A stretch of 40,403 bases of DNA from Acidimicrobiia bacterium (lineage in GTDB: Bacteria > Acidobacteriota > Vicinamibacteria > Vicinamibacterales > UBA2999), in NCBI GenBank assembly GCA_016871275.1, contig VFZG01000036.1:1-40403 (forward strand). The letters run 5' to 3'. Shown here piece by piece: positions 8,696-11,844 of the stretch. How positions within the stretch are numbered: the first letter of the stretch is position 1; every line of letters starts with the position of its first letter. The notes under the pieces were generated by a model. The model ran no database searches. It was not told the origin of the DNA and worked only from the letters and a program-made list of their open reading frames with translations. Both the position numbers and the translations under genes were made by a program.

Positions 8696-9598
8696 CTAGT
8701 TCAGCTCGCGCGTCACCCACATGAACTGCTGGACGTCGATCATGTCCTTCGCGCCAAGCGGTGCCAGCCGTTCCAGCAGCGACCGCGCCATGCGCAGCGC
8801 CGCGTCGTAGGTCTCCCAGTTCGGCGTGGTGTCGTATTTCAGGTCCGCCGTCATGCGCGCCGCCATCAGGTCGGTGTTGGTGGGCTTCAACGCGATGAAT
8901 CGCGTCGGATCGGCCAGGAACGGCAGCAGCGTGACGATGGGCCAGGTGTGCACCTTGCCGCCGTCCGCCGGCAACTGGCTCACCGCCTCGGCCATCTGCT
9001 TGAACGACAGCCTCGTCGGGTTCGCCATAAACGCCAGCGTGAAACCGAGCACCTTGGTGGAGGCCTCGTCGCCCTTGGCGAACGCCTTGTGCACGGCTTT
9101 CATTTCGAACGGCGACAGGACGTTGGTGGCACGGAAAATACCGTCGAGCAGGTTGGCGATTTCGGCGTGCTGCCCCTGGTCAACCATGGCGCCGCCACGG
9201 CCGTCCGCGAAGTTGGCGGCGAAGGTCTCCTGCGCCGCGCGCTTGTTGCGGTAGTCGGCATCGATCAGCTTCTCGTCCGCGAACTTGCCCGGATAGGTCT
9301 GCTCGAACCACGCCACGGCGTCGTCGATGCCGTTGGCGAGATCCTTCACTTTCCGCTTGCTGCCCTTCTTCGGCTTGGCGGGACCGACCTCGACGCCGTC
9401 GAGCTCTGGATCGCTTTGCACGCTGGATTTGGTCAGCTGCGGCGCGTCTTCGCGCAGTTTGCGTTGTGGGCCTTGCGGGGAGTTGGCAAGCGACGGGAAG
9501 TGAATGATGGCGTACGGCGACAGGATCTCAATCACCTTGCCGCGCTTCCAGACGGTATGTTCAACCAGGATCCCGACATCGTTCGGGGTCAAAACCAT
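8696..9598 (-). CDS. Conserved-looking hypothetical protein, cytoplasmic, 300 residues
   Basis: I do not recognise this protein. It has no signal peptide or membrane segment. The N-terminal 40 residues (VGILVEHTVWKRGKVIEILSPYAIIHF) look like a small beta-barrel of the DUF3553/SH3-like type, a pattern otherwise seen as a DNA- or nucleic-acid-associated tail. A basic linker follows (KPKKGSKRKVKD, about 75-87), then an alpha-helical domain from about 90 to 300, including NLLDGIFRATNVLSPFEMKAVHKAF and a tryptophan-rich end QQFMWVTRELN. It probably forms a transcription unit with the downstream aminotransferase. The ATG at 9598 lies 6 bases after TAAGAT; the spacer AGGCGG could also act as a ribosome site. 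Confidence 0.7.
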   Translation of the reverse strand: MVLTPNDVGILVEHTVWKRGKVIEILSPYAIIHFPSLANSPQGPQRKLREDAPQLTKSSVQSDPELDGVEVGPAKPKKGSKRKVKDLANGIDDAVAWFEQTYPGKFADEKLIDADYRNKRAAQETFAANFADGRGGAMVDQGQHAEIANLLDGIFRATNVLSPFEMKAVHKAFAKGDEASTKVLGFTLAFMANPTRLSFKQMAEAVSQLPADGGKVHTWPIVTLLPFLADPTRFIALKPTNTDLMAARMTADLKYDTTPNWETYDAALRMARSLLERLAPLGAKDMIDVQQFMWVTRELN

Positions 9599-9672: not shown

Positions 9673-10105
9673 ATGCATCGAATCCGTTGTGTGTTCGCGA
9701 CCTTGGTTGCCGTGGCGCTCGTCACCGTGCCGGCGGCAGTTGCCCAGGAGGTGGTGCGTAAGGAGGCGCCGGCTGAGATCCGTACGTTGTTCCAGGCGCT
9801 GACCAAAGCCGCCAATGGCGACGCTGCCGCATGGAAGGCGTTTGCGCAGGCCCACTACACGCCGGCGCGCTTGAAGAAGGAAACCGCCGCCCAGCGTGCC
9901 GCGTTCCACCAGCAGATCGCCGACAAGTTCGGCACCGTGGCGATCAACGGCGTTCGCCGCGAAGGTCCCGACGCGCCGCTTCAGGTCATGGCCAAGGGAT
10001 CGAAAAGCGAAGGCACCATCCGGGTCGATCTTGCTCTCGACTCCCCGAAGATTGACGCCATCAGCGTCGATGGCGGCGGCCCCGTGGCCGCCGCTGATCC
10101 CAACG
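9673..10105 (+). pseudogene. Truncated exported protein, N-terminal module only
   Basis: The ATG at 9673 begins a clear signal peptide (IRCVFATLVAVALVTVPAAVAQ). About 115 residues follow that resemble the accessory module found in acidobacterial serine hydrolases and S41 peptidases (AAQRAAFHQQIADKFG, REGPDAPLQVMAKGSKSEGTI, DLALDSPKIDAISVDGGG). Around 10080-10105 the recognisable sequence ends. The same frame stays open to 10485, but there it is only a shadow of a permease fragment encoded in another frame. I read this as a gene whose catalytic part was lost by a deletion that joined it to a permease tail. Family assignment is by resemblance. Confidence 0.55.
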
Positions 10106-10474
10106 GCCATGTTCGCGCTGGCCGCACTGCTGCTCGCCGCGCTCGGCATTTACGGCGTGCTGTCGTATTCGGTGACGCAGCGGACGAAGGAGATTGGCCT
10201 CCGCACGGCGCTCGGCGCATCCGGCGGCAACACCGTGGCGATGATCGTCCGCAGCAGCGTGGGCATGGTCGCGATCGGCGGCGTGATTGGTCTGGTGGCT
10301 GCGGTGCTGCTGGCGCGATCCATGGCCGGCATCCTGTATGCCGTCGGCCCCTTCGATCTGCCGGCGTTCGCCCCCGCGCGATTGACGCTGCTGATGGCCG
10401 GACTGGTCGCGAGCCTGCTGCCCGCGCTGCGATTGACGAAGGTGGATCCGATCGTGGCGCTACGCGCGGACTGA
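10106..10474 (+). pseudogene. C-terminal fragment of an ADOP/MacB-type ABC permease (FtsX domain)
   Basis: The frame through the ATG at 10109 encodes MFALAALLLAALGIYGVLSY, then QRTKEIGLRTALGAS, two further hydrophobic segments and LLPALRLTKVDPIVALRAD. This is the unmistakable last FtsX module of a MacB-type or acidobacterial ADOP permease, which normally has about 400-880 residues. Everything upstream, including the periplasmic domain, is missing. The fragment is out of frame with the signal-peptide ORF fused before it, so no full-length product can form. Its stop overlaps the convergent DUF697 gene by 15 bases. Confidence 0.8.
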
Positions 10475-11044
10475 CGCCGGCTTGAAGTCGAACAGCGTGC
10501 CGCCCTTGGCGAAGTGGCTTGCGAACAACTGGCCGAGCGTCCACGTGAGCGCGTACGCCGAGAGCGGCATCGCGATGATGGCGCCGGCCGTGCCGATGCC
10601 GGGCACGGACTTCATCAGCCGTGCGCTGGTCGTGTAGGCAAACCGGGTCGCGCCCATGCTGGTGATCGATGCGGCGATCATCGACTTGGCCAGCTGCTCG
10701 TCAGACGACAGGTGGTAGTGCGCGGCGAGCGCCGACAGCATCTTCACCTGCACACCGGTGATCACCATGAAGTCCAGGAACGGTATTGGGATCGCTCCTG
10801 CAGTCGCCGCATACTTCGCATAGCTGGCCACGATGGCGTGCGCCGCGGCTTCGTGCGACGTGACTTCCGGTGCCGCGGCATTCACGGCCGGTGCTGCGGC
10901 ATTGACGATCGGTGTGGCATCGGCCGCCGCTGCACTCCCAGCTGCCGCCGGAGCCTCTGAGCGGTACACCCAGTCCGTCTTCGGCGTGCTCGATTCGACG
11001 TTAGTGGATGGAAGGTTGAATTCCGGCTTGCGCTTTTTCGCCAT
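10460..11044 (-). CDS. DUF697-family membrane protein, partner of ParA
   Basis: A 194-residue protein. The first 75 residues are low-complexity, basic and then Ala/Pro-rich (MAKKRKPEFNLPSTN ... AAAPAVNAAAPEV). The C-terminal part is a DUF697 domain: HAIVASYAKYAATAGAIPIP, LDFMVITGVQVKMLSALAAH, then glycine-rich hydrophobic hairpins (MIAASITSMGATRF, VPGIGTAGAIIAMPLSAYAL). DUF697 usually occurs as the membrane part of YcjF-like or GTPase proteins. Here it is a stand-alone gene whose start lies 44 bases inside the upstream parA, so the two are translationally linked. The inferred role is a membrane-bound or membrane-inserting cargo or regulator of the ParA ATPase. Confidence 0.75.
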   Translation of the reverse strand: MAKKRKPEFNLPSTNVESSTPKTDWVYRSEAPAAAGSAAAADATPIVNAAAPAVNAAAPEVTSHEAAAHAIVASYAKYAATAGAIPIPFLDFMVITGVQVKMLSALAAHYHLSSDEQLAKSMIAASITSMGATRFAYTTSARLMKSVPGIGTAGAIIAMPLSAYALTWTLGQLFASHFAKGGTLFDFKPASVRA

Positions 11045-11822
11045 AGGTCGTCTCCGTCTCGATCGTTTGCGCGCCGTCGAGTTGAGCGACGAGCGCCGAG
11101 TAGTCTTCCGCCGCCCGGCTGGCCGGCGCGTATTCCCAGATTGTCTGGTGCGCCGCCGCCGCGTACGTCAGATCGATGCACTGGCGGATGCCTCGCTCGA
11201 ACAACGCCGGTCCCATTTCCTTGTCCGCCGCCAGCGCCTGCAGCGTCGCCCTGCTGGCATGCGTGTTCATGTTCACCGCGGTTGGCACCACTGCCGCGAG
11301 CGTCAGCTGACGATCGGGCCACAGGCTCCGTATCTCGTTCACGCCATTCAATGTCTGCCGCGCGCCGGCCAGCGCCATGGTGTCCATGCCGACCGGCATG
11401 ACGATCTCACCAACGCACAGCAACGCATTGTAGGTGAGCAGGTTCATGGCCGGCGACGAATCGATCACCATCACGTCGAATCCATGCAGGTCCTTCATCC
11501 GCCTCGATAACAACGTTTCGCGTTGCACCGTGCCCGCGAGCACCGTCTCCAGCGTGAACGCCGCCGGGGTGGACACGATCACACCCAGGCCGGGACGCGA
11601 ATCCACCTCGATGATCGCCTCCGCCGGCGCGACCTCGCCGAGCATGACTTCGCGAATGGTGTGTGGAGATGACAGGCCCAGCAGGTTCCCGACGTTGCCC
11701 TGTGGATCGGCGTCGACCAGGAGAACCCGCCGTCCCCGTGCGCGGAGGCCGGCGGCGATCTGCACGGCGGTCGTAGTCTTGCCGACGCCGCCCTTCATGT
11801 TCACGACCGCCAGGGTGCGCAT
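11001..11822 (-). CDS. ParA/Soj-family ATPase
   Basis: A 273-residue ParA-type P-loop ATPase. The deviant Walker A is KGGVGKTTT at residues 10-18 with the signature lysine, followed by VLLVDADPQGN (switch I/Walker A') and VMVIDSSPAMN (Walker B). The fold continues as in Soj/MinD-like ATPases (MPVGMDTMALAGARQTLN, LAAVVPTAVNMNT). The ATG at 11822 is chosen because the protein then begins directly with the conserved first beta strand (RTLAVVNMKGG); the longer in-frame start at 11855 adds 11 unlikely residues. No ParB or parS-like cluster was seen, so a chromosome-partition role is not supported. The only obvious partner is the overlapping DUF697 gene. A perfect inverted repeat covers the start codon, which suggests autoregulation. 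Confidence 0.87.
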   Translation of the reverse strand: MRTLAVVNMKGGVGKTTTAVQIAAGLRARGRRVLLVDADPQGNVGNLLGLSSPHTIREVMLGEVAPAEAIIEVDSRPGLGVIVSTPAAFTLETVLAGTVQRETLLSRRMKDLHGFDVMVIDSSPAMNLLTYNALLCVGEIVMPVGMDTMALAGARQTLNGVNEIRSLWPDRQLTLAAVVPTAVNMNTHASRATLQALAADKEMGPALFERGIRQCIDLTYAAAAHQTIWEYAPASRAAEDYSALVAQLDGAQTIETETTYGEKAQAGIQPSIH

Positions 11823-11844
11823 TGGTGTGCAAATACTACACCAA
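11822..11844. promoter_or_regulatory. Perfect inverted repeat over the parA start: operator candidate
   Basis: TTGGTGT at 11822-11828 and ACACCAA at 11838-11844 form a perfect 7-base inverted repeat with a 9-base spacer. It overlaps the first base of the parA ATG. On the parA strand the spacer region contains TAGTAT (11838-11833), a plausible -10 box 10 bases before the ATG. Binding here would block transcription initiation and possibly translation. Confidence 0.55.

Follow-up and report, generated by a model that had tools for sequence, protein, structure and literature searches.

What does a ParA-type ATPase do, and with which partner, when the gene that follows it encodes no ParB? This question is raised by the window, i.e., the whole stretch of 40,403 bases that was analysed, which is one complete contig (C36) of a parent genome of 3.96 Mb in 124 contigs. 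On its minus strand, the reading frame of parA (11001..11822) runs complete from an ATG at 11822 to a stop at 11001 and encodes an ATPase of 273 aa, while directly downstream the gene of a partner protein of 194 aa (10460..11044, minus strand) begins with an ATG at 11044 and ends at 10460. Both genes share 44 nt in different frames (11001..11044, minus strand), and a GGAG resembling a ribosome-binding site can be read inside parA, 7 nt before the partner ATG (11052..11055, minus strand). Coordinates and Pfam matches therefore agree with the original prediction of a complete ParA gene overlapping a stand-alone DUF697 gene by 44 bases. Upstream of parA, an inverted repeat with 7-nt arms, TTGGTGT-N9-ACACCAA (11822-11844), ends on the first base of the start codon; it was considered as a shared operator and discarded, since it has no counterpart in eight other loci, where one dissimilar repeat precedes parA of genome G051, and its occurrence is probably due to chance.

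The ATPase, its clade and the ParABS context

On the basis of its sequence and predicted structure, the ATPase can be assigned to the ParA/MinD (A/D) family. It matches Pfam AAA_31 (1.4e-35) and carries a deviant Walker A motif, KGGVGKTTT, whose lysines K10 and K15 are invariant in the five clade members aligned, together with a Walker B motif, VIDSSPA; none of 25 of the 36 NCBIfam models for this protein reaches its cut-off. The AlphaFold model has a mean pLDDT of 92, with residues 259-269 under 50; it contains no helix beyond residue 250, and the remaining tail (251-273), where a MinD-like ATPase would carry an amphipathic membrane-targeting helix, is predicted as coil with low confidence (blocks at pLDDT 49-61). 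The closest fold is that of Soj/ParA (Z 37.5, rmsd 1.3 over 248 residues); the score is 32.8 for McdA, 30.7 for MinD and 25.6 for BcsQ. In a tree of 44 ParAs, the window ParA and its relatives form a monophyletic clade of nine members with support 100/99 and a stem 1.32 changes per site long. To cover a range of taxa, 33 of 79 non-clade loci had been hand-picked for this tree; 30 of them are included, the other three having yielded no row under the filter applied.

Several residues set this clade apart. M126 and Y131 occur in 9/9 members and N127 in 8/9 (Ser in G008), while at the equivalent positions the 35 non-clade ParAs have mostly L (33), G (28) and L/V/I (32), so that the canonical L-G-xxx-L (the L-G-L-L-T-L stretch) reads M-N-xxx-Y in the clade. 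Matched by motif, the three positions correspond to L150, G151 and L155 of Myxococcus xanthus ParA, which are reported, from mutation or NMR, to take part in binding of the ParB peptide (PMC12462528). A second group of changes concerns DNA binding: an aspartate, D217, stands in all nine clade ParAs where 32 of the 35 others have R or K, and the position of the second DNA-binding arginine is occupied by N, Q, S or G, or falls in a gap, in the six clade members aligned. We take R195 and R224 of Caulobacter crescentus ParA to be the equivalents of R189 and R218 of Bacillus subtilis. The Caulobacter residues are described as DNA-binding and as common to several relatives (PMC7229837). Because these two arginines of Soj and of the Caulobacter protein are not kept in the clade, it is uncertain, as judged from sequence, whether the clade ParAs move over the nucleoid.

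These substitutions lead to a first alternative, in which the partner would hold ParA at the membrane and ParA would switch a membrane enzyme or a division factor. BcsQ, MinD and MipZ are ATPases acting as such regulators. An aspartate in place of the usual arginine in 9/9 clade ParAs, the loss of the other arginine in the six aligned and the hydrophobic C-terminal segment of most partners (see below) would all suit a regulator of this kind, yet DNA-binding residues often show little conservation across this family, true DNA binders included, according to a published account (PMC7229837), and invariant arginines (R191, R213 and R236) lie nearby in five clade members. The fold, which in itself shows no function, is nearest to Soj/ParA (Z 37.5) rather than to MinD or BcsQ, and no target gene is common to the loci. 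Altogether, we regard a regulatory role as unlikely.

The ParABS reading was examined, with ParB genes sought in the genome and parS in the window, and rejected. The partner has no ParB domain, and both ParB genes found in the genome (contigs C76 and C1) directly follow another ParA; on C76, an rsmG-like gene, recognised by eye, precedes the ParA. The order rsmG-like gene, ParA, ParB is the usual chromosomal arrangement. The parS consensus has no match in the 40-kb window even when as many as 3 mismatches are allowed, and a repeat search around the pair returned two-copy families only, with no clear repeat array. That no parB or parS sites were seen, as stated in the original prediction, is thus confirmed for the window.

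The partner family and its spread

In the window, the partner starts with the basic peptide MAKKRKPEF (residues 1-9; 11018..11044, minus strand), which motif comparison brings under the form K/R-P-x-F and which we propose as a candidate ParA-docking or ParA-activating peptide. It is followed by WVYRS (residues 25-29; 10958..10972, minus strand), by a linker rich in Ala and Pro according to its amino-acid composition (residues 30-62; 10859..10957, minus strand) and by a DUF697 domain (residues 64-181; 10502..10855, minus strand). Both the basic start MAKKRKP and the Ala/Pro linker announced for this protein are present in the translation. DUF697 (PF05128) is its only Pfam match and a narrow pass (E 1.2e-6; 28.8 bits against a cut-off of 27.7), and NCBIfam returns no match for the protein; the domain aligns with other DUF697 of the order and is a lineage-specific C-terminal part. 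A single-sequence structure model is of low confidence throughout (mean pLDDT 44) and unusable for fold or linker. The gene product had been described as a DUF697 membrane protein: the domain is confirmed, and the membrane part is weakly supported, the best 19-residue Kyte-Doolittle mean being 1.56, below the usual 1.6.

The pair is rare. A clade ParA was found in 7 of the 162 genomes of the order (eight copies; the window genome and six others), in the same 7 of 193 genomes class-wide and in 4 of the 396 genomes of a phylum sample. A further one, in a MAG titled Terriglobia (L016), is 62% identical and stands among the matches listed in a wider contig scan, whose yield is a lower bound and which hardly covers the spread outside Acidobacteriota. 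Wherever a clade ParA is complete (9/9), the partner gene lies directly downstream on the same strand, overlapping it in eight cases, counted with the partner start chosen to include the motif, and abutting it in L016; these pairs span four families of the order in addition to L016. Since ParA and partner are conserved together in other genomes, their association is more than chance. Genome G460 contains two copies of the pair (L182 on C107 and L173 on C112) whose partners are clearly different.

What the partners share is short. A run of basic residues closes with P-x-F, or nearly so, and is followed by W-V-Y-R-S/T, a linker and a C-terminal part, and outside the two motifs the proteins have little in common. 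As had been predicted, the basic N-terminal peptide is conserved: the phenylalanine of K/R-P-x-F occurs in 11/11 partner segments, with a net charge of +3 to +5 before it. The strongest element, invariant in the 11 partners found, is WVYR, of which the original prediction made no mention; its tryptophan lies 13-17 positions after the phenylalanine of the peptide, and in 8/11 partners the sequence reads WVYR[S/T][D/E]. It is worth stressing that WVYR lies outside the gene overlap in all nine pairs measured; in L016, moreover, the partner begins after the ParA stop and nevertheless carries the peptide, and G023 (see below) has no clade ParA, so that the overlap does not account for the motif. 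The linker is of low complexity, mostly Ala- and Pro-rich, and the C-terminal part varies. Among the nine complete clade pairs, it is a short hydrophobic segment in seven, DUF697 in the window and off the contig in G443. Hydrophobic stretches at this end often carry prolines and a basic end, and in 9 of the 10 partners with a visible C-terminus (G023 included) the Kyte-Doolittle mean after the motif reaches 1.68-2.55, the exception being the window copy at 1.56.

DUF697 can no longer be taken as the domain that defines the partner. A Pfam scan of nine other partners gave no family above its cut-off in any of them (the C-terminus of the G443 partner being off the contig), and the domain exceeds its curated cut-off in two partners, namely those of the window (28.8 bits) and of G023 (46.5 bits). 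The claim that DUF697 is the partner family of this ParA therefore fails, the domain being restricted to the window among the nine complete clade pairs. From the proposed conservation of an adjacent ParA/DUF697 pair, it is the ParA-plus-partner half that is retained (9/9); likewise, the idea of a partner system of its own survives as an orphan ParA with a conserved non-ParB partner, and loses DUF697 as its family. Free-standing DUF697 genes were also seen in L005 (G004) and L009 (G000); the proteins encoded directly after them, of about 295 aa, resemble each other and begin with a signal-like sequence, an arrangement that possibly represents a separate DUF697 context.

A model of the double motif (31 positions, built on 7 partners) was run on the 162 genomes of the order and gave 10 matches at E<1e-5, of which 8 adjoin a complete clade ParA. 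Six of the ten are training rows; the four new ones, in G443, G460 (twice) and G437, all lie beside a clade ParA or its tail. In G437 the match is at a contig end, where 34 codons in another frame, whose stop codon falls within the partner gene, resemble, by eye, the C-terminus of the G008 ParA; this looks like a ParA C-terminus overlapping the partner and cut by the contig end. Seven weaker matches (E 0.0027-0.009), whose loci contain no W[VIL]Y[RK], were left out of the counts. In the phylum sample, the motif was detected at E<0.001 in 5 of 396 genomes, all five being training rows, and a scan for W[VIL]Y[RK] followed by S/T/A/N/D in 140 ParA loci (L016-L155) gave a partner-like match in L016 only. 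The remaining one of the ten matches is in G023, a genome estimated at 98% completeness, where a partner with DUF697 (L004:1372-2040; G023:C7:117191-117694) occurs without a clade ParA; the three ParA-type matches of this genome are at most 35% identical, two of them grouping in the tree with ParB-linked ParAs and the third (L189) not being in the tree.

Neighbouring genes and the search for a cargo

We looked for a cargo gene shared by the loci and found none: among 160 predicted genes from 11 loci, a length-filtered set which does not capture the short partners, ParA alone occurs in more than three regions, and no gene besides ParA and its partner is common to all. FtsX-type permeases occur in three regions (the remnant in the window, the G013 region and G443), and the other neighbour genes are shared by two or three regions, some of them through synteny between close relatives. 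The window contains a remnant-like gene (9673-10485, plus strand); the C-terminal domain of an FtsX permease is recognised in the 9896-10474 frame (7e-12, Pfam), whereas an upstream start with a signal-like N-terminus lies in another frame. In G443, a long FtsX-like permease is located immediately upstream of parA. A predicted protein of 300 aa in the window (8696-9598, minus strand) has no Pfam family. As the pair is rare (7/162 in the order and 4/396 in the phylum sample), its cargo is unlikely to serve a core function.

Such a patchy spread, with few shared flanks, may recall the remains or an accessory of a mobile element, namely a partition pair of plasmid type left behind in the chromosome and serving no cellular cargo, and the single PHROGs match is indeed named 'ParA-like partition protein'. 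We consider this origin highly improbable, given that no match was found in 72,556 plasmid records at 1e-30, that the ParAs of 60 viral-contig loci are 24-35% identical, short N-terminal segments aside, and that the window shows neither parS nor a clear repeat array. Furthermore, the relatives' ParAs are 58-71% identical to that of the window, and across this whole range both genes are intact and the motifs kept. Taken together, the plasmid, viral-contig and PHROGs comparisons do not support a plasmid or phage origin. The PADLOC defence models gave three weak matches to ParA, near the P-loop.

A more specific alternative would make the pair the McdAB equivalent of an acidobacterial ACI-type metabolosome, with WVYR in the role of the aromatic residue by which McdB binds the shell. 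In G008, the pair follows genes for a class II aldolase, BMC-H, two EutN/CcmL proteins (BMC-P), a 2-hydroxyacid dehydrogenase and an HhH-GPD protein of the endonuclease III type (L190:4977-9993, G008:C12; Pfam and gene order), a set close to ACI metabolosome loci as described (PMC8217296). McdB is reported to need an invariant tryptophan, often with an acidic residue near, for carboxysome binding (PMC11321042), to which the WVYR[S/T][D/E] of 8/11 partners could be compared, and, according to the literature, putative McdAB systems are also encoded in further BMC operons (PMC8262871). In addition, BMC-H shell genes occur in 7/7 genomes of the order with a clade ParA; this figure covers ParA-bearing genomes only and may mean nothing, given that published ACI loci come chiefly from subdivisions 4 and 6 of the Acidobacteria (PMC8217296). 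The pair stands beside a BMC locus in G008 alone, however, whereas in the six other genomes the BMC-H matches listed (at least three per genome) are on other contigs. Moreover, the tryptophan of McdB is C-terminal and WVYR is internal, with variable C-termini behind it, and a hydrophobic C-terminal segment is unfit for a soluble shell adaptor. A link with microcompartments thus appears doubtful, more so than the regulatory role discussed above. A BMC locus resembling that of G008 is also present in the genome of the window, where it runs to the edge of contig C15 (L202).

Proposed working of the pair and comparison with known systems

In our opinion, the two genes probably constitute a stand-alone two-protein module of the ParA type for positioning (or anchoring). 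Partners of ParA/MinD ATPases are described as binding through a charged N-terminal peptide, the remainder being kept for the cargo (PMC10241942), and for McdB the first 20 residues are reported to suffice for interaction with the ATPase (PMC12204374). From the conserved pair and its motifs, which are read directly in the alignments, we infer a scheme of docking, activation, membrane binding and positioning. The basic N-terminal peptide of the partner would grip the ATP-bound ParA dimer, WVYR perhaps providing a second contact, either on ParA or on the cargo; docking would stimulate ATP hydrolysis and thereby release. The linker would give the partner reach, and the C-terminal part would tether it to the inner membrane or to a cargo that is itself membrane-bound, the DUF697 of the window being one exchangeable form of the anchor. 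In this way the anchored complex may become evenly spaced or be kept at a defined position. Some observations speak against this scheme: G023 has the partner architecture with DUF697 yet no clade ParA, the hydropathy of the window copy (1.56) fails the plain test for a membrane anchor, and the two DNA-binding arginines are not kept in the clade members aligned. It is tempting to go further and to see here a new class of ParA-type system, in which the nucleoid-binding arginine has become aspartate, the interchangeable anchor of the partner, instead of the ATPase, gives attachment to the membrane, and K/R-P-x-F plus WVYR act as a two-part activation peptide; we hold this extended version to be rather unlikely.

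The interest of the pair lies in a partner family that is recognised by a short double motif, which persists although everything else in the protein is exchanged, and in matching ATPase residues that are known from structure work on ParB. It accordingly lends itself, as a compact natural example, to testing how a partner peptide selects its ATPase and whether a ParA-type system is able to operate from the membrane. The term orphan is applied to many ParA-type ATPases, their partners being regarded as too diverse to have been identified (PMC10241942). Among the open-licence PMC papers listed, by title and opening lines of the abstract, we saw none on a DUF697 protein as partner of a ParA, nor any on this pair under membrane-anchored ParA partners, DUF697/YcjF or acidobacterial ParA. 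The orphan ParA1 and ParA2 of Bdellovibrio are similar in description, being presented as ParA paralogues with non-ParB neighbours of unknown function (PMC7186360).

With the YcjF/TIGR01620 proteins, the partners of the window and of G023 share the DUF697 domain; in contrast to YcjX-YcjF-type pairs, no GTPase domain was detected by Pfam in seven further window proteins, taken from either side of the pair, and DUF697 was not found in the nine other partners scanned, one of which is cut by a contig end. As far as tested, the pair belongs to the ParA-plus-partner kind and stands outside both ParABS and McdAB. Like ParABS (Soj/Spo0J), it combines the ParA fold and Walker motifs with a basic N-terminal peptide on the partner and the gene order parA-partner, but the partner is devoid of a ParB domain, parS is missing from the window, and the peptide pocket and DNA-binding arginine are altered throughout the clade. 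The resemblance to McdAB is found in the two-gene composition, with a ParA whose fold is comparable to that of McdA (Z 32.8) and a small low-complexity partner bearing a basic N-terminus and a conserved tryptophan; unlike McdB, these partners carry their signature tryptophan internally and end in a hydrophobic segment or DUF697, and a single pair, that of G008, was seen beside BMC genes.
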